Shown here: positions 9,016-20,230 of the stretch, piece after piece
Layout of the letters: each line of letters starts with the position of its first letter
How positions within the stretch are numbered: position 1 is the first letter of the stretch
DNA from: Bdellovibrionales bacterium
GTDB taxonomy: Bacteria > Bdellovibrionota > Bdellovibrionia > Bdellovibrionales > UBA1609
Length of the DNA: 33,489 nucleotides
Assembly: GCA_022450595.1 (NCBI GenBank)
Contig: JAKUPT010000030.1
Location: forward strand, 1 to 33,489
Direction of reading: 5' to 3'
Notes under the pieces: model-generated
What the model was told of the DNA's origin: nothing
The model's input: only the letters and a program-made list of their open reading frames with translations
Database searches by the model: none
Made by a program: the position numbers and the translations under genes

Positions 9016-10392
9016 TTAATTAAAAACTTTACCTGGATTTAATATCCCATCCGGATCAAAAACCTGCTTTATAGATTTCATGATCAGTATTTCTTGCTCC
9101 GAGCGAGTGAACTGTAAGTATGGTTTTTTGGTTAAGCCCACACCGTGCTCAGCGGACACACTGCCTTCATGCTTTTGAATGGTTTGAAATAAAATGTCAT
9201 TGGCTTTTTGGCACTTGGATAAAAACTCGTCTTTGTCCATATCTTTGGGCTTAAGCATATTGATATGTAAATTTCCATCACCAATGTGACCAAACCAAAC
9301 CACTTCAATGTCTGGGTATTGCTTTTTTAATATTTCATCCATTTCAGTTAAAAACTCGGGCACTTTTGAAATGCGCACTGAAACATCGTTTTTATAGGGC
9401 TGAAAAGCACTGGTGGCTTCAGAAATATCTTCTCTTAAACGCCACAGGTCTTTTGCCTGTTGAGCATTTTGGCTAACAGTTCCATCTTCCACCCAGCCTT
9501 GTTCCATGCAGTGTTCAAAAATATTCATCGACTCTTCAAGGCTTTGTTCAGAGTCGTTTTCTACTTCAACCAACACATAATAAGGGCTCTCGGTTTCAAA
9601 AGGACGAGACAGGCCTGTAGAGTCAGTCACATACTTTAAGGCAATGTCTGTGAACATTTCAAAGGCTGTAAGGCTCACTTTGCTTTTGTAGGCCTCAAAG
9701 ATATTCATCACGGCATCTAATGTGGGCACTCCAAATACAAACACAGAAAGCTCTATAGGGGGCCTAGGCACTTTCATTTCAAGCTCTGTGATAAAGCCCA
9801 GGGTTCATTCGCTTCCAATAAACAAATGTCTTAAATCATAGCCAGAGGCATTTTTAACTAAAGCATTGTTAAGTTTTAAAATCTCACCACTGCCTGTAAC
9901 CACAGTCATTCCAGCCACCCAGTCGCGAGTCAGCCCGTAACGTACAACCTTTATACCGCCGGCATTGGTGGCCACATTTCCACCAATTTGGCTGGAGCCA
10001 CGAGCTGCAAAGTCCACAGGGTAGAATTTGCCTTGCTCTTGAGCGTACTCCTGAAGTTGCTCTGTAATCACACCAGCCTCACAATGAACGGTTTCATCAA
10101 TAGAGTTATAAGAGTTGATTTTATTCATTTTTTCAAAAGAAACCACAACTTCGCCATTCGTAGCTATGGCAGCACCACTTAAGCCAGTTCTACCTCCAGA
10201 GGGGACAAGCGCAATCTTATTTTCTCTGGCCCACATAACAAGCTTTTGAGTCTCTTCTGTGGACTTAGGAAACACAATAGCCAAAGGCTTGGCTTCAATA
10301 TGCTTGGTCCAGTCTTTTCCATAAGTTTCAAGACTGTCTTTGTCGGTTTTGATTTGTTCTTTAGATAAAAAATTAATTTTGTCTAAGGCCAT
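9016..10392 (-). pseudogene. FAD-linked 2-hydroxyacid dehydrogenase (D-2-hydroxyglutarate / D-lactate / glycolate type), interrupted by in-frame TGA
   Basis: The gene reads as one frame of 458 codons except for TGA at 9805-9807 (codon 196). The N-terminal piece (9808-10392) carries the FAD-binding PCMH domain: PSGGRTGLSGAA, GSSQIGGNVATNAGG, then RHLFIGSE followed by the stop. Reading resumes without frame change as TLGFITELEM, and the family expects Gly between these (GSEGTLG), so a single GGA-to-TGA change explains it. The C-terminal piece (9016-9777 from an internal ATG) has the FAD-oxidase C domain with FGHIGDGNLHIN and GSVSAEHGVGLTKKPY, signatures of the D-2-hydroxyglutarate/D-lactate dehydrogenase group. 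The break splits the FAD domain, so the fragments are unlikely to work alone. Start ATG at 10392 has a GGGAG site. The rest of the gene looks intact, so the lesion is recent, or a sequencing error. Confidence 0.88.
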
Positions 10393-13399: not shown

Positions 13400-13687
13400 A
13401 TGGACTGGTATGAATCTGCATCTGAAAAACATAAGAAAAAAGAACGAGAAAAAGCACGAGTGCTAAGAAAGTCCCAATGGTGGAAAGCACAGTTAGCCTC
13501 AGGGGTGTGCTACTATTGTGCGCAGATTTTCTCACCAGAAGAGCTGACCATGGATCATAAAATCCCCGTAGCTCGAGGCGGGCGCAGCAATAAAGGCAAC
13601 GTGGTCCCTTGTTGTAAGCAATGTAATACAGAAAAAAGGCACAAAACCCCAGCAGAACTAGCTTTGGAAGAGCTGAAAAAATCGTAA
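13400..13687 (+). CDS. Small HNH endonuclease domain protein
   Basis: A 95-residue protein consisting almost wholly of an HNH (beta-beta-alpha metal) domain. The first Cys pair GVCYYC (Cys37, Cys40), then MDHKIPVARGG (His53), NKGNVVPCC (Asn67) and CKQCNTEKR (Cys72, Cys75) give the zinc-stabilised McrA-type HNH layout, with a predicted metal-dependent nuclease site. The N-terminus is very basic and charged (EKHKKKEREKARVLRK). The upstream region shows no good ribosome-binding site, so expression may be low or the start different. It precedes the topoisomerase VI operon by about 215 bases with its own probable promoter region in between. Whether it acts with the topoisomerase is unknown; stand-alone HNH proteins of this size are common and functionally varied. 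Confidence 0.82.
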   Translation: MDWYESASEKHKKKEREKARVLRKSQWWKAQLASGVCYYCAQIFSPEELTMDHKIPVARGGRSNKGNVVPCCKQCNTEKRHKTPAELALEELKKS

Positions 13688-13901: not shown

Positions 13902-15839
13902 GTGGCCAATCAGATAAAGTCCAGCAGTACTGCCGAATATTTTGCTAAAAACTTACAACAAGTTGGGTTTTCCTCTCCTTTAAAGGCGGTTTTAACCACC
14001 TTAAAAGAAGCTGTAGATAACTCTCTTGATGCTTGTGAAGAGCATGACATTCTTCCGGAACTCATTATTGAAATCAATAAAAAGGGCAAAGGCTCTAGTC
14101 GTTCTTCAGACCTAGTAGAAATTATTGTTGAGGACAACGGTCCCGGGCTTGAAGTGGATATGGTCGGAAAAGTTTTTGGTGAGTACTTAGCCTCATCAAA
14201 ATTTGGCCGTGGTCAATGTTCTAGAGGGCAGCAAGGTATTGGTATATCAGCTGCCACCACATGGGCCCAGCTCACCAACGCCAGTGGTGTGGTTGTCACC
14301 ACCAAAACAAAAAAAATGCGAAAAGCCGTTCGAGCCAAGGTGGATGTGGACATTAAAAGCAACAGAGGTGTGATCAAACAAAAAGAAACCTTTGATTGGC
14401 ACAAAGACCACGGTGTTCGTTGCGAGTTTATTATCGATGGACGTATTCAATTAAATGGAGACGGTGGGATTTTAACTTACTTAGAGGGAACAACACTTGT
14501 GAACCCTCATTTAACTTTAAAATATAAACTACTTGAAAACGACTGGGTTGAAATCCCACGAGTGAGTGATGAAGTGCCAAAGGTACCAAAGCCCACACTT
14601 CCTCATCCGCACACAATGAAACTGGGCGAGTTTATGACCCATGCCCATATATACGGAAAGATCTCTTTAGACAAATTTCTTAAAAAGGGTTTTTCAAGAG
14701 TTACAGACAACTCCATTAAAGACTTTGTAAAGCGTGGAATGCCGCAGGCTTATTTGAAAAAGAATTTAAATAAAATGAGCGAAAAAGAGTTTAAAAATGT
14801 CTTCTCAGCCATTCAAGACTCGGAACTGCCCAACCCATCTACCAAGTCCGTATTAACTGTTGGAGAAGAGGCTTTATCGAAAAGTGTGCTTCGTATTGGT
14901 GTGGTGGACTTTTTTAGTGTGGTGACAAGAAAACCTAAAATTTGTGACTACAAGCCCATTGTTGTTGAGGTGGCTATCGCCAGATTTTTAGACCGCGGAA
15001 GAGACGCTGAAGATAAGCAAATCCAGCTATTACGTTTTGCCAATCGTGTGCCTCTACAGTTTGATAAAGCCGGTTGTGCTATCACAAAAGCCGTAGAGTC
15101 CATCAACTGGCGCAGTTACGGTTTGGCACAGTCAAAAAACTCACTTCCTATTGGCCCATATATTATAGCGGTGGCTGTCACTTCTCCGTTTATTAAATTT
15201 AAAAACGCATCTAAAGAGACCATTGATGCTAGTGATGAGTTAGTAGAAGAGCTAAGACGTGCTTTAATGCAGGCCGGGCAAAAGCTAGGTCGTCACATTA
15301 AGCGAGAAGAAAAGGCTGCAGACCTTGAAAGAAAGCTTGCTCATATTGAAAAGTTTGGCCCCATACTGGTGGAAGGCTTAGCTAAAATCATCGGAGCTGG
15401 TGAGCAAAGAAAAAAGCGTGCTGAAGAAGGTTTAAAAAAGCTTCTGGGGCGTGACACTTCCGCGGCAGAAGATGATCTTGCTGCCGCAGAGCAGAGACTG
15501 AAAAAACAACGTGAGATGCAAAGGCAGAGACTTGGCTTTGATGCACGTCAGTTGATTGAAGAAAGCAGTGTGAATGAAGAAGTCAGTGTGAATGCTGGTG
15601 ATGAGCCCGAAGAGGCTCCAACTAGTAAAAAAGCCACTTCTAAAAAGGCAACCAGTAAAAAAACAACTGCTAAGAAAAGCACAAAAAAAGCGACTAAAAA
15701 AGTAGCCAAAAAAGCCACTAAGAAAAAGACAGTGGCCAAAAAGGCCACAAAAAAGTCGGCAGCAAAAGCTAAGAAAAAATCGAATAAAAAAGTAACTAAG
15801 AAAAAAGCGACCAAAAAAGCTGCAAGAGCCAAAAAATAA
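13902..15839 (+). CDS. top6B: DNA topoisomerase VI subunit B with lysine-rich C-terminal tail
   Basis: ATPase subunit of a type IIB topoisomerase, which passes one duplex through another with ATP. The GHKL ATPase domain has the N box KEAVDNSLDA (36-45), DNGPG (78-82) and the topo VI-typical RGQQGIGIS (108-116). An H2TH-like region (FSRVTDNSIKDFVKR) and a transducer domain with the family pattern LLRFANRVPLQFDKAG follow. Residues about 574-645 form an acid-free tail, nearly half lysine, with K-K-A-T/S repeats like histone H1 C-termini. Start is GTG at 13902; AAAGGA lies about 10 bases ahead and the only near ATG is out of frame. The A subunit follows after 12 bases. Topoisomerase VI is chiefly archaeal and plant; bacterial copies are sporadic. 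Confidence 0.93.
   Translation: MANQIKSSSTAEYFAKNLQQVGFSSPLKAVLTTLKEAVDNSLDACEEHDILPELIIEINKKGKGSSRSSDLVEIIVEDNGPGLEVDMVGKVFGEYLASSKFGRGQCSRGQQGIGISAATTWAQLTNASGVVVTTKTKKMRKAVRAKVDVDIKSNRGVIKQKETFDWHKDHGVRCEFIIDGRIQLNGDGGILTYLEGTTLVNPHLTLKYKLLENDWVEIPRVSDEVPKVPKPTLPHPHTMKLGEFMTHAHIYGKISLDKFLKKGFSRVTDNSIKDFVKRGMPQAYLKKNLNKMSEKEFKNVFSAIQDSELPNPSTKSVLTVGEEALSKSVLRIGVVDFFSVVTRKPKICDYKPIVVEVAIARFLDRGRDAEDKQIQLLRFANRVPLQFDKAGCAITKAVESINWRSYGLAQSKNSLPIGPYIIAVAVTSPFIKFKNASKETIDASDELVEELRRALMQAGQKLGRHIKREEKAADLERKLAHIEKFGPILVEGLAKIIGAGEQRKKRAEEGLKKLLGRDTSAAEDDLAAAEQRLKKQREMQRQRLGFDARQLIEESSVNEEVSVNAGDEPEEAPTSKKATSKKATSKKTTAKKSTKKATKKVAKKATKKKTVAKKATKKSAAKAKKKSNKKVTKKKATKKAARAKK
15621..15836 (+). repeat. 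Imperfect repeats encoding the lysine/alanine/threonine tail of topoisomerase VI B
   Basis: This 216-base stretch encodes 72 residues of short degenerate units such as TSKKA, TSKKA, TSKKT, TAKKS, TKKAT and KKVAK. I count 34 lysines and no acidic residue. It gives A-rich DNA (AAAAAAGC/AAAAAGGC repeats) and a spurious long hydrophobic frame on the other strand. Such a sequence is prone to slippage and length variation. Confidence 0.8.
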
Positions 15840-15851
15840 AGGGTAGTAACT

Positions 15852-17018
15852 ATGGCATTGATGAAAGTTCGAAAACTGAAAAAAGACATACCTAAAGAAG
15901 CAAAAGCTCTTTGTGAGCAGATGCTAAAAGATCTTGAAAGAGCAAAGCGTCCCACGCTAGAAGCGATAAAATGCTCTTTGGACAATTCATTTTATAATCC
16001 AAAAGTGGGCTACTTAACTCCGGGTGATAAAAGAGTTAGAACAGAGCTTAATGTGTCTTCTGTTCAAAAGCTCTCACGTACTATTTTTATGCTCGATATT
16101 CTTTTAGAGAACATTTACAACGGTTCAGTAAATACCAAGCGTGAGCTTTACTATATGGCAAAAGGTTTAGTGAAATCCACTAGGGGGATAAACTTAAAAC
16201 CTCTTGATTTTGATGATCAGCCTGAAAGTGATGCCATTATTGATTTTATTTGCGATATGTTGATGGTTTACCGTGAAGAAGTGAACTGTTTTGCCAACGA
16301 TCGTGGTGGTCAAACTTACTCTCAGTGTTTAAGTGTGACAGAAACTTTGCCGGATGGCTCTAAAACCACTGTGGATTTAAAAAACTTAGGTACCGCTCCT
16401 TTTCAACCAAAAAACCGTCCACAAGCCTTAAAGCTTAAGGCTACTAAAAAGATTGAATTTTGCTTAGTTGTGGAATCAGAAGGTACCGCCAACACATTGG
16501 TATCAAATGGCTTTACTAGAAGAAACAACTGCATCGTTATGGGTGCTCAAGGGGTGCCTTCAAACGCTGTAAGAGCTTGGTGTAAAACCATTCAAGATCA
16601 ACTTAAAGTGCCTATATTCTTTTTTGGTGACCTGGATGCTTACACCTTACAAAACATTTACAGAACCTTGAAAGCCGGATCTGCAGCCAGTCTTGTCAGA
16701 AACTCCGACTTCTCAGCTCCTGAGGTAAGATTTTTAGGAGTGCTCCCTGAAGATGTGAAAAAATATGATCTTCACTGTTATACTGTGTCTGAGAAAAACG
16801 CCAGTGATGCAAGATCCCTTAAAAAAGCCCGTGATGTTTTACAAAACGATCCATTTTTTAAAGACAAAAAAAATAAAGACGTGGCAAAGATTCTCAACTG
16901 GTTGATTAAACATAAAGTCCGTTGCGAACAGCAGGCTTTTTTCTCAGTGAATCCTAAAGATCCACTTATGACAGAAAAAATTATTTTAGATAAAATTAGA
17001 TCTGGTTCTTATGTTTAA
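15852..17018 (+). CDS. top6A: DNA topoisomerase VI subunit A (Spo11-like)
   Basis: DNA-cleaving subunit of the type IIB topoisomerase, a homologue of the meiotic nuclease Spo11. The 388 residues hold a winged-helix domain with the catalytic tyrosine motif TKRELYYMAKG (Tyr101 most likely nucleophile) and a Toprim domain with VVESEG (Glu208) and FFFGDLDAYTLQNIY (Asp260, Asp262). The usual family text after the Toprim aspartates is D-x-DPYG, here DLDAYT, so the segment following the metal ligands has diverged although both aspartates remain. PSNAVRAW matches the family P-S-x-x-x-R motif. It lies 12 bases after the B subunit gene with GGGTAG ahead of ATG, so the two are co-translated. The stop overlaps that of the convergent lipoprotein gene by four bases. 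Confidence 0.92.
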   Translation: MALMKVRKLKKDIPKEAKALCEQMLKDLERAKRPTLEAIKCSLDNSFYNPKVGYLTPGDKRVRTELNVSSVQKLSRTIFMLDILLENIYNGSVNTKRELYYMAKGLVKSTRGINLKPLDFDDQPESDAIIDFICDMLMVYREEVNCFANDRGGQTYSQCLSVTETLPDGSKTTVDLKNLGTAPFQPKNRPQALKLKATKKIEFCLVVESEGTANTLVSNGFTRRNNCIVMGAQGVPSNAVRAWCKTIQDQLKVPIFFFGDLDAYTLQNIYRTLKAGSAASLVRNSDFSAPEVRFLGVLPEDVKKYDLHCYTVSEKNASDARSLKKARDVLQNDPFFKDKKNKDVAKILNWLIKHKVRCEQQAFFSVNPKDPLMTEKIILDKIRSGSYV

Positions 17019-20000
17019 AGCTTCCCATTATAAGGGTGAGCATAAACTTCTACATTAATTACATTTGTAGATGAGCTAAAGTTACATTTTTTATAATCAT
17101 TGTCTGTTCCCATATGTCCTTGGTAGGCTCCAAGGTTAGGCGACAGTATACATGTTTCATTAGATTCACATAGACCATTATTGTTTCCAATAAAGTCAGT
17201 ATTTATTTCGGCGGCATTAGACAGATAATATTCACTAACACCAACTGAGTTTTTGTATATTGCTTCTTTATTTAGAGCGCTACTACAATCTGGATTATTA
17301 AATTTCCCAGTACTTGGGGCGTAGTTATTATTTGAGTGGGCAACTCCTGAAAAACTATAAGATGAATCAAGGATATTAGAGTTACTTCTATTTAAAGTAA
17401 TACTATACAGAGTACATGTTTGGCTTGTAGAGCAACTAGATGTACTATATAGCCAATAATCATAAATGCTTGTATTAATCCAGTCAGAGGTAGTTACAGT
17501 TGTTGTTGTTGATGGCGAATAGAAATCTCCAAAGGTAAAAGTATTTGTTTTTCTAGGATAAGAGTCGCAGGTGTCATAGTCTCCGCCACTATTTTGTAAG
17601 TTACAAACAGGATTTGTGTCACTATCTAAATAACTATTGTAAAACTCTGGATTGGGACGCACTTCGCTACCAGACGTAACATTATGTTTTAAGTATATAT
17701 TATTTAAGTGATTACTAAACCCTAATTGAGAAAAACTAAAATGAGAGTTTGAGTCTTCATAAGAAACAAATACAGCATCATTATCAGGAATGCCATCTAC
17801 AGTTAAATCTGATCCTGTGGAGTATATTTGGTTAACTGTCAAATTCTGAAGCGTTGAATTTAAATAAATAGACTCAAGTGAGTTGTTACTAAAACTAACA
17901 TGGTTGACATTTGTTGAAGCCAAATTAATATTTGAGTTTGTTACCCTTATAGGAGAGGATAATTCTCTAATACCTACAATAATTGATTGAGAAATGGAAA
18001 TTTTTGGGGCGATATTGATGTTGGTAGTGTCAAAGCTCACACCACCATATGAGTTAGAAAACTTTGAATTTGTTATATATAAATTTTTAGTATCTGAAGC
18101 CAATAAAGCCCCTGAGCTTTGAATATTCATTATTTTAGTGTTGCTTATGTTTATATAATTGGAATTTGAGATTAATAACCCCTTTGATGAACTGTGAATA
18201 TTCGAGTTAGATAGAGTAATATTTTTTGAGTTACTAATATTTAAAGGAGTGTATGTTGAGTTGGAATTGCTAACATTCACCTCTAAAAATAAATTTCTAC
18301 TATTGTTGACTGTTATATTTGAACCTCTCGAGGATGTGTCAAAATTAAAACGATTCTGAATAATACTTGCATTTGAAATACCATCTAATATTAAAGGCCC
18401 AGTATGTGATCCTCCAATGATTATTATGTTTTGGTCTTTTTCAGATCCTAAGGTGGTTTGAGAAGTGCTATTTAATACATTTACTGGATTTGTCCATAGT
18501 GTTTGTGCATTTAGGCTATTACTTTTAACCGTTCCATAATTTTTATCTTTTAACAATACATTAAAACCAACAAAAGATGATAAGTTTATTAGGCTATTAA
18601 GTTTAAAATTATTTTTTACACCTACGATTTGAAAGTCAGCAAAATTTGCTCTTTGCACACACTTCCATAAAAATGGAACAACATTGTTATCACTAGATTT
18701 TTCAATCTCAACTTTATAATCATTACAACTAGTGGCGCCAGGTATTTCGATATGCCACAACAGCCCAGCGTTTACACATTCGTTAGGGGAGTTTATTGAG
18801 TTAATAATTGTGTCCGTGCATTCATTTGTAAAATTAGTTAAGTCATGAGGGTTAGCCATTGTATTAGAAATGTAATATCCCCATTTTTTACTATTCTCAT
18901 CTCGTTTTAATAGTTGAATGTAAGACCATTGATCATAGTCAACAGGTGTTGAGCTGTTTGGAAAGGCCTGAGAATCATAACTCCATACTCTAACATAGTA
19001 TTTTTTGTTTTTTGCTGTAGAAAATTGAATTTGGTTTTGACTATTGATGTTTGTAAGTGCGGCATTATTAAAATCATTCTTAAGGTTGGCAGAGTTATCA
19101 CTATAATCTACGTAGTAAGTTATAGCAGGATTAAGCCCTGAAAGAGTTAATGTGTCACTCCCAGATATTCGGTTTAAAGTTAAGCCTGCAGGTGGAGTGG
19201 GTTGATCTTTCATCGTAAAAACATCATTAATTACATATCTATTCCATTGCGCTGGAGAATTATTGTTATAAGCACATACTACAATATTATATCCAGTGTC
19301 TGAGGGTAAGCCAGGGATGGTATAGTCAGGCCCTGTAAGAGATCCTGTCCCACTACAAATTGGTAAAGGATCTGTTGTCAGAGCATGAAGAACTTCAAAG
19401 TTAGTCGCACCATCAGCTGATATACCAGATACTAAAATACTAGTGTTGTTGGGGCTTGATGCCATCGCTGTTAAAGAAAGCGGTTTTTTGTAGTAAACCA
19501 TAGAAGCTGGGCTACTTTGGTTTCCTGAATTTTTTCCACAAATAGAAATAGTAATGTCATTGCTGTTTAAATCAAATGAGGTGGTGCCATTTCCAGAAGA
19601 AATATTAGTTGTGGCATTTGACTGTGCAGGCACTTCAAAACCAGAGCTACAGTCAGGAGTGACGTTGCCATTTTTGATGCTAATCACTACCTCATCATTT
19701 CCATGATCATCGGGTAGAGCCCATTTAATATCAATTTCTGTGTTGCTAATATAATTGATTGAAGAAATAGTTGGCACAGTGGCCTGAGGAGTCGTTGGGG
19801 GCGGTGAAGTGTTGTTGTATATAACATCAATCTGTTGGGGCTGTGATTCGCCAGTTAGAGACACCGCTCTTAACCAAATTGATTTAGTTTTATAATCATT
19901 AAGAGCAAAGCCGAGCTCTTCGAGCTTAAAACTGATTTTAAAGTTTTCATCACTGCAATCACCATCACTGTTAGATAGTAGAGTTGTCAGTGTGTTCCAG

Positions 20001-20230
20001 TCTTGACCTTCAAGTTTAACTTGTAAGTTTTTAATGTCCGAAGAGCACTGGCCGGAGATTTCATAGGGTGTTGAAAAATGTGAGTCGTTCACCTCATAAG
20101 GGCCTTGGCCAGATAACTTTGGGCTCAAGGATGAGAACCCAATAAGGCTGATCACAGGATCTTGCTTTGAGCAGCCAAGTGTGAATGTTAAGGCCAAAAC
20201 TGTTAGCCACAGTTTGTGTACGTACGACAT
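17015..20230 (-). CDS. Large lipoprotein with Fn3-like and right-handed beta-helix regions
   Basis: A 1071-residue predicted surface or periplasmic lipoprotein. The N-terminus MSYVHKLWLTVLALTFTLGC is a signal peptide ending in a lipobox, with acylated Cys20. Several Fn3-like beta-sandwich segments follow (for example PTISSINYISNTEIDIKWAL and PTPPAGLTLNRISG). About 600-750 form Asn/Ser-rich parallel beta-helix (PbH1) turns such as LNISNSKNITLSNSNIHSSS and ISNTKIMNIQSS. The C-terminus includes LGAYQGHMG, like the D-I-G-A-Y-E element found at the end of beta-helix surface proteins. Several cysteines are paired in the C-terminal third. Function is unknown; adhesion or polysaccharide binding are typical of the fold, but no catalytic site is evident. 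Codon use is AT-rich. It is a single-gene unit, convergent with top6A. Confidence 0.85.
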   Translation of the reverse strand: MSYVHKLWLTVLALTFTLGCSKQDPVISLIGFSSLSPKLSGQGPYEVNDSHFSTPYEISGQCSSDIKNLQVKLEGQDWNTLTTLLSNSDGDCSDENFKISFKLEELGFALNDYKTKSIWLRAVSLTGESQPQQIDVIYNNTSPPPTTPQATVPTISSINYISNTEIDIKWALPDDHGNDEVVISIKNGNVTPDCSSGFEVPAQSNATTNISSGNGTTSFDLNSNDITISICGKNSGNQSSPASMVYYKKPLSLTAMASSPNNTSILVSGISADGATNFEVLHALTTDPLPICSGTGSLTGPDYTIPGLPSDTGYNIVVCAYNNNSPAQWNRYVINDVFTMKDQPTPPAGLTLNRISGSDTLTLSGLNPAITYYVDYSDNSANLKNDFNNAALTNINSQNQIQFSTAKNKKYYVRVWSYDSQAFPNSSTPVDYDQWSYIQLLKRDENSKKWGYYISNTMANPHDLTNFTNECTDTIINSINSPNECVNAGLLWHIEIPGATSCNDYKVEIEKSSDNNVVPFLWKCVQRANFADFQIVGVKNNFKLNSLINLSSFVGFNVLLKDKNYGTVKSNSLNAQTLWTNPVNVLNSTSQTTLGSEKDQNIIIIGGSHTGPLILDGISNASIIQNRFNFDTSSRGSNITVNNSRNLFLEVNVSNSNSTYTPLNISNSKNITLSNSNIHSSSKGLLISNSNYINISNTKIMNIQSSGALLASDTKNLYITNSKFSNSYGGVSFDTTNINIAPKISISQSIIVGIRELSSPIRVTNSNINLASTNVNHVSFSNNSLESIYLNSTLQNLTVNQIYSTGSDLTVDGIPDNDAVFVSYEDSNSHFSFSQLGFSNHLNNIYLKHNVTSGSEVRPNPEFYNSYLDSDTNPVCNLQNSGGDYDTCDSYPRKTNTFTFGDFYSPSTTTTVTTSDWINTSIYDYWLYSTSSCSTSQTCTLYSITLNRSNSNILDSSYSFSGVAHSNNNYAPSTGKFNNPDCSSALNKEAIYKNSVGVSEYYLSNAAEINTDFIGNNNGLCESNETCILSPNLGAYQGHMGTDNDYKKCNFSSSTNVINVEVYAHPYNGKL

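Follow-up and report, generated by a model that had tools for sequence, protein, structure and literature searches.

A topoisomerase VI gene pair of Bdellovibrionales, probably a chromosome decatenase in place of topoisomerase IV

Background

The literature has yet to settle what topoisomerase VI does in bacteria (PMC11302465). Two adjacent genes for it lie in a metagenome-assembled genome (MAG) of the Bdellovibrionales (3.06 Mb, 97% complete), 33.5 kb of which (part of contig C81) were analysed and are called the window below. Topoisomerase VI without topoisomerase IV is known from one species of this order, Bdellovibrio bacteriovorus, to which Allen and Maxwell ascribe topoisomerase VI and gyrase but no topoisomerase IV (PMC11302465). 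New here are the phylum-wide scale of this arrangement, a sister family with topoisomerase IV as a contrast, exceptions among the Oligoflexia, and a phage that carries the enzyme.

Results and discussion

Identity of the gene pair

The features of the window discussed first are the following:

13400..13687, + strand: small HNH endonuclease gene (95 aa), just upstream of top6B
13902..15839, + strand: top6B (GTG start, 645 aa), encoding a GHKL ATPase domain, H2TH-region helices, a transducer domain, two long C-terminal helices and a disordered tail
15456..15836, + strand: C-terminal extension of Top6B (residues 519-645), a coil and an acidic stretch followed by a Lys/Ala/Thr-rich tail
15852..17018, + strand: top6A (388 aa), encoding a winged-helix domain with the YY motif (Y100-Y101) and a Toprim domain (E208, D260, D262)

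Both genes are open reading frames, spaced 12 nucleotides apart, and B precedes A on a single strand in all 65 named loci where both were seen. Top6B matches the NCBIfam model "DNA topoisomerase VI subunit B" over residues 2-540 (E = 4e-155) and the Pfam transducer model (E = 1e-45), and Top6A matches the NCBIfam model "subunit A" over its whole length (E = 4e-119, with a score of 398 that lies below the model cut-off of 424) as well as the Pfam models Top6A/Spo11 Toprim (2.5e-38) and TP6A_N (6e-13). Neither protein matches the type IIA ParC/ParE families (PF00521, PF00986). Their only sequence relatives in the PDB are archaeal topoisomerase VI subunits (of Methanosarcina mazei, S. shibatae and M. 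jannaschii), and topoisomerase VI chains are also the best Foldseek matches of both AlphaFold models (Top6A, mean pLDDT 90, E = 1e-23; Top6B, mean pLDDT 78 with its tail disordered, E = 9e-44). Between its GHKL and transducer domains Top6B has the helices of the H2TH region (residues 241-306), and Top6B of both M. mazei and S. shibatae can be aligned along the model.

The GHKL motifs of Top6B are present (N box, DxGxG, and a G-rich lid, R108-GQQGIGISA); in an alignment of 26-28 sequences, N40, D78-N79-G80-P81-G82 and R108-G109-Q110-Q111-G112-I113-G114 are invariant or nearly so, and K438, the switch lysine of the transducer, is invariant. Y101, E208, D260 and D262 of Top6A are invariant in 26 sequences and are also aligned with archaeal Top6A. 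Family models, solved structures and AlphaFold models all point the same way, and the residues of the ATPase, tyrosine and Toprim sites are conserved; top6B and top6A are therefore an intact topoisomerase VI gene pair, with chance excluded, and the first-pass annotation of a complete two-gene enzyme with intact catalytic boxes is borne out. Identity and intact motifs are direct observations here; judged from sequence, the pair apparently encodes a functional, chromosomal A2B2 topoisomerase VI.

The closest named relatives are from other Bdellovibrionales MAGs (Top6A 82% identical to that of UBA1609). Compared with two relatives, Top6A is at least as well conserved (74% and 83% identity) as GyrA (71% and 77%). 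A Bdellovibrio-like genome of family f8 encodes proteins 74% (A) and 67% (B) identical to those of the window, from which the window proteins differ only in a longer and more lysine-rich tail of Top6B. The archaeal enzymes share domain order, fold, catalytic residues and two-gene make-up with the window pair, at 22-33% identity, but the Ig-like C-terminal domain of M. mazei Top6B is replaced in the window protein by long helices and a disordered tail.

Conversion of the complex into a recombination or DNA-cleaving enzyme, either Spo11-like or nuclease-like as in Wadjet JetD/MksG, is very improbable. Top6A is related to Spo11 and gives one very weak JetD match (E = 0.0066, 78 residues only), but it is always paired with a full Top6B that possesses both ATPase and transducer, and the NCBIfam models matched are those of topoisomerase VI. 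No SMC-type Wadjet genes were recognised among the window genes scanned, Top6B has no PADLOC match, and the combination of JetD family match and SMC-like operon that marks Wadjet JetD/MksG was not found.

Topoisomerases of the order and phylum

The genome from which the window comes encodes a single member each of PF00521 (GyrA/ParC), PF00986 (GyrB/ParE) and PF01131 (type IA). The PF00521 protein carries the GyrA box (QKRGGKG), identifying it as a gyrase subunit, and searches for the GyrA/ParC and GyrB/ParE families revealed no topoisomerase IV in this genome, its type IIA genes being those of gyrase only. Topoisomerase VI had at first been considered superfluous in a bacterium with normal gyrase and topoisomerase IV; this premise fails here, as it does in all 121 genomes with topoisomerase VI that were sampled in the phylum.

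Of 59 relatives within the order, 58 have Top6B, and so do all 48 genomes of the order whose completeness is 90% or more and whose contamination does not exceed 5%. Among 192 genomes sampled evenly across the phylum, each searched for both topoisomerase VI and PF00521, 121 have topoisomerase VI; thus the description of bacterial copies as patchy does not apply within this lineage, where they are core genes. The 121 genomes are related and perhaps amount to only two or three independent events. A single PF00521 match was obtained in 116 of them and several matches in five, and no topoisomerase IV was seen among the tabulated matches. The five were considered as candidates for topoisomerase IV and rejected: the matches in G032, G055, G059 and G089 are fragments of one gyrA, and the second gene in G072, a bin with 5% contamination, is GyrA-like.

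Family f15 accounts for 65 of the 71 genomes that lack topoisomerase VI. None of its 65 members has the enzyme, and in 61 of them PF00521 is matched at least twice; the extra gene, where it was read (G063, G082, G142, G145 and G210), encodes a ParC-like protein of about 480 aa with no GyrA box, and in G063 a ParE-like gene lies beside it. The first-pass annotation speculated about a link between topoisomerase VI and division after the growth of many chromosomes at once; family f15, probably the predatory Bacteriovoracaceae, has gyrase and topoisomerase IV instead, and such a life cycle by itself therefore does not require topoisomerase VI. In families f12 (three genomes) and f18 (one genome), gyrase occurs without topoisomerase IV or topoisomerase VI. 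In the GyrA tree, f12, f15 and f18 are separated from the families with topoisomerase VI (SH-aLRT 94), which is the pattern expected from one exchange.

A review lists "Top IV (Bd0005)" and "Top II (Bd2865)" for B. bacteriovorus (PMC11318664). The Bdellovibrio-like genomes studied here, such as G048 (probably Bdellovibrio; locus L146), contain a single PF00521 gene, which lies close to the start of its contig and encodes a GyrA with a GyrA box, and Bd0005 and Bd2865 are therefore probably gyrase and a topoisomerase VI subunit. The topoisomerase VI of B. bacteriovorus (PMC11302465; Bd2864 in PMC11318664) and that of the window belong to the same order, with gyrase and without topoisomerase IV in both.

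Oligoflexia

The neighbouring Oligoflexia were represented by 40 genomes of unreported completeness, reached through named Oligoflexia loci. Topoisomerase VI is present in 22. Four of these (G236, G250, G251 and G252) additionally carry a second gene, which is ParC-like; five other genomes have a ParC-like gene without topoisomerase VI, and 13 have gyrase alone. The large genomes G250 (L202) and G252 (L203/L204) encode ParE of about 615 aa and ParC of about 842 aa beside topoisomerase VI, with parE-parC about 8-15 kb upstream of top6B-top6A on the same contig. Since four of the 22 combine both, topoisomerases IV and VI are not incompatible, and the exclusion of one by the other is strict only in the phylum sample to which the window belongs.

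Proposed cellular role

Gyrase is present and the absence of topoisomerase IV leaves decatenation open, and it is for this reason that decatenation is assigned to topoisomerase VI. We estimate a probability of roughly 0.7 that topoisomerase VI acts as the chromosome decatenase in place of topoisomerase IV in this lineage; conservation in the core genome and absence of topoisomerase IV are direct observations, whereas activity and role in vivo are what we infer from genome sequences. If the enzyme works as its archaeal counterpart does, ATP would drive the dimerisation of Top6B through its GHKL domains and one duplex would be trapped; Top6A, with its tyrosine and the metal site of its Toprim domain, would cut the other duplex, leaving the 2-nt overhangs typical of topoisomerase VI, and let the trapped one pass. 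Gyrase would supply negative supercoiling, and topoisomerase VI would be the main enzyme unlinking replicated chromosomes. In the majority of bacteria that place belongs to topoisomerase IV (ParC/ParE), which is of type IIA, whereas topoisomerase VI is of type IIB; topoisomerase IV occurs instead of topoisomerase VI in f15, and in some Oligoflexia either beside it or in its absence. The specialised decatenation role suggested by the first-pass annotation is likely as far as decatenation is concerned, but not as an addition to topoisomerase IV, which is absent. M. mazei topoisomerase VI relaxes DNA poorly and prefers decatenation (PMC8837201); Allen and Maxwell mention unpublished data in which it complements an E. 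coli parE-ts mutant (PMC11302465). A literature search found no paper on the essentiality of topoisomerase VI in Bdellovibrio.

Bacteria with gyrase as their only type II enzyme exist, and gyrase might perform the bulk of decatenation here as well, with topoisomerase VI as an accessory enzyme reserved for particular entanglements, for instance late catenanes, knots or compact nucleoids. The gyrase-only relatives (f12, f18 and 13/40 Oligoflexia) speak for this division of labour because, having neither of the other two enzymes, they indicate that gyrase alone can suffice. Near-universal retention of topoisomerase VI in the order, strong constraint on its sequence, and the possession of topoisomerase IV by the family without it (f15) make an accessory function unlikely, and decatenation chiefly by topoisomerase VI is preferred. 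If topoisomerase VI is the decatenase, a function that is essential to bacteria, and elsewhere one of the main targets of antibiotics, has passed to an enzyme of archaeal type, and gyrase should be the only target through which quinolones act here. A phylum in which topoisomerases VI and IV replace each other by family, with some culturable members, makes the question testable.

C-terminal tail of Top6B

Beyond the transducer, the model of Top6B consists of two long helices (residues 445-497 and 501-544), then a disordered acidic part and a lysine-rich end; pLDDT is below 50 from residue 549 onwards, and 34 of the last 85 residues are lysine. The median extension of Top6B beyond residue 518 is 75 residues. 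The tail is strongly basic in only 27 of the 94 sequences, which are dispersed over the clade, and at this frequency the lysine-rich tail was rejected as a clade-wide feature. C-terminal extensions of Top6B in gyrase-bearing archaea have been read by others as an adaptation to gyrase (PMC9348778). The Top6B of family f16, likewise found beside gyrase, has almost no tail. One guess is that the tail tethers the enzyme, holding or guiding it on DNA.

Phylogeny and a second type of topoisomerase VI

In the trees of both subunits, which cover the phylum and the available archaea, the main bacterial type forms one clade far from the archaeal sequences included. A published anomaly places Bdellovibrio Top6B outside the bacterial clusters. 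Genomes of family f16 (G064, G069 and G075; loci L039, L040 and L041) encode a second, archaeal-like topoisomerase VI whose Top6A is 27-29% identical to that of the window, and they too lack topoisomerase IV. The order archaea, f16, main clade was recovered in the tree, on saturated branches, and a plasmid search with the f16 locus gave no match.

Plasmids and phage

Topoisomerase VIII, a type IIB enzyme like topoisomerase VI, is a fusion of the two subunits. In the literature it occurs on free and integrated plasmids, whereas the window has two separate open reading frames in a core chromosomal locus with recurring neighbours. Grouping with decayed plasmid-borne forms, which the first-pass annotation had named as grounds for rejecting its reading, was not seen: close plasmid relatives are lacking, and the only plasmid matches are distant ones to haloarchaeal megaplasmids (about 22-28% identity).

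One contig of IMG/VR (IMGVR_UViG_3300028558_000016, 482,156 bp; L210/L211/L212) encodes both subunits of a topoisomerase VI of the window type (Top6B of 556 aa and Top6A of 383 aa, 59% and 67% identical to those of the window, respectively), near part of a T4-type DNA polymerase with best matches in huge phages, a UvsX-like recombinase and an SprT-like gene. About 23 kb of this contig were read, and its status as phage rests on the IMG/VR listing and on these genes; a search of GenBank phages gave no topoisomerase VI match. Both proteins group within the bacterial clade, where their closest neighbours are MAG sequences labelled Deltaproteobacteria or Oligoflexia, a position that would fit capture from a host.

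The occurrence of such genes on this 482-kb contig would suit a recently acquired mobile or plasmid gene, similar to topoisomerase VIII and without a core role, but this origin is the least probable of all those considered for the window pair, given the clade-wide presence of topoisomerase VI, subunit trees that both broadly follow the named groups, and the chromosomal neighbours, separate genes and plasmid searches described above. A wider reading that joins dependence on topoisomerase VI as the only dedicated decatenase after an exchange with topoisomerase IV, the lysine-rich Top6B tail as an adaptation to gyrase, and a large phage of the lineage with its own topoisomerase VI in its replication region is tentative, at slightly less than even odds.

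Neighbouring genes

An HNH open reading frame related to that at 13400-13687 was found in 35 of 69 named loci, upstream of top6B in most of those, which makes this endonuclease gene a syntenic neighbour of top6B. A glutaredoxin open reading frame is present in 30 of the 69, again mostly upstream of top6B. On the opposite strand (17015-20230, - strand), a gene for a protein of 1071 aa with an N-terminal lipoprotein-like signal overlaps the end of top6A by 4 nucleotides; the flanks of the 69 named loci contained no relative of this protein. Farther upstream (9016-10392, - strand), one in-frame TGA near 9805-9808 interrupts a gene for a GlcD-like FAD oxidase, whose relatives in L056 and L120 continue across this point in the same frame; the TGA is either a nonsense mutation or an assembly error.
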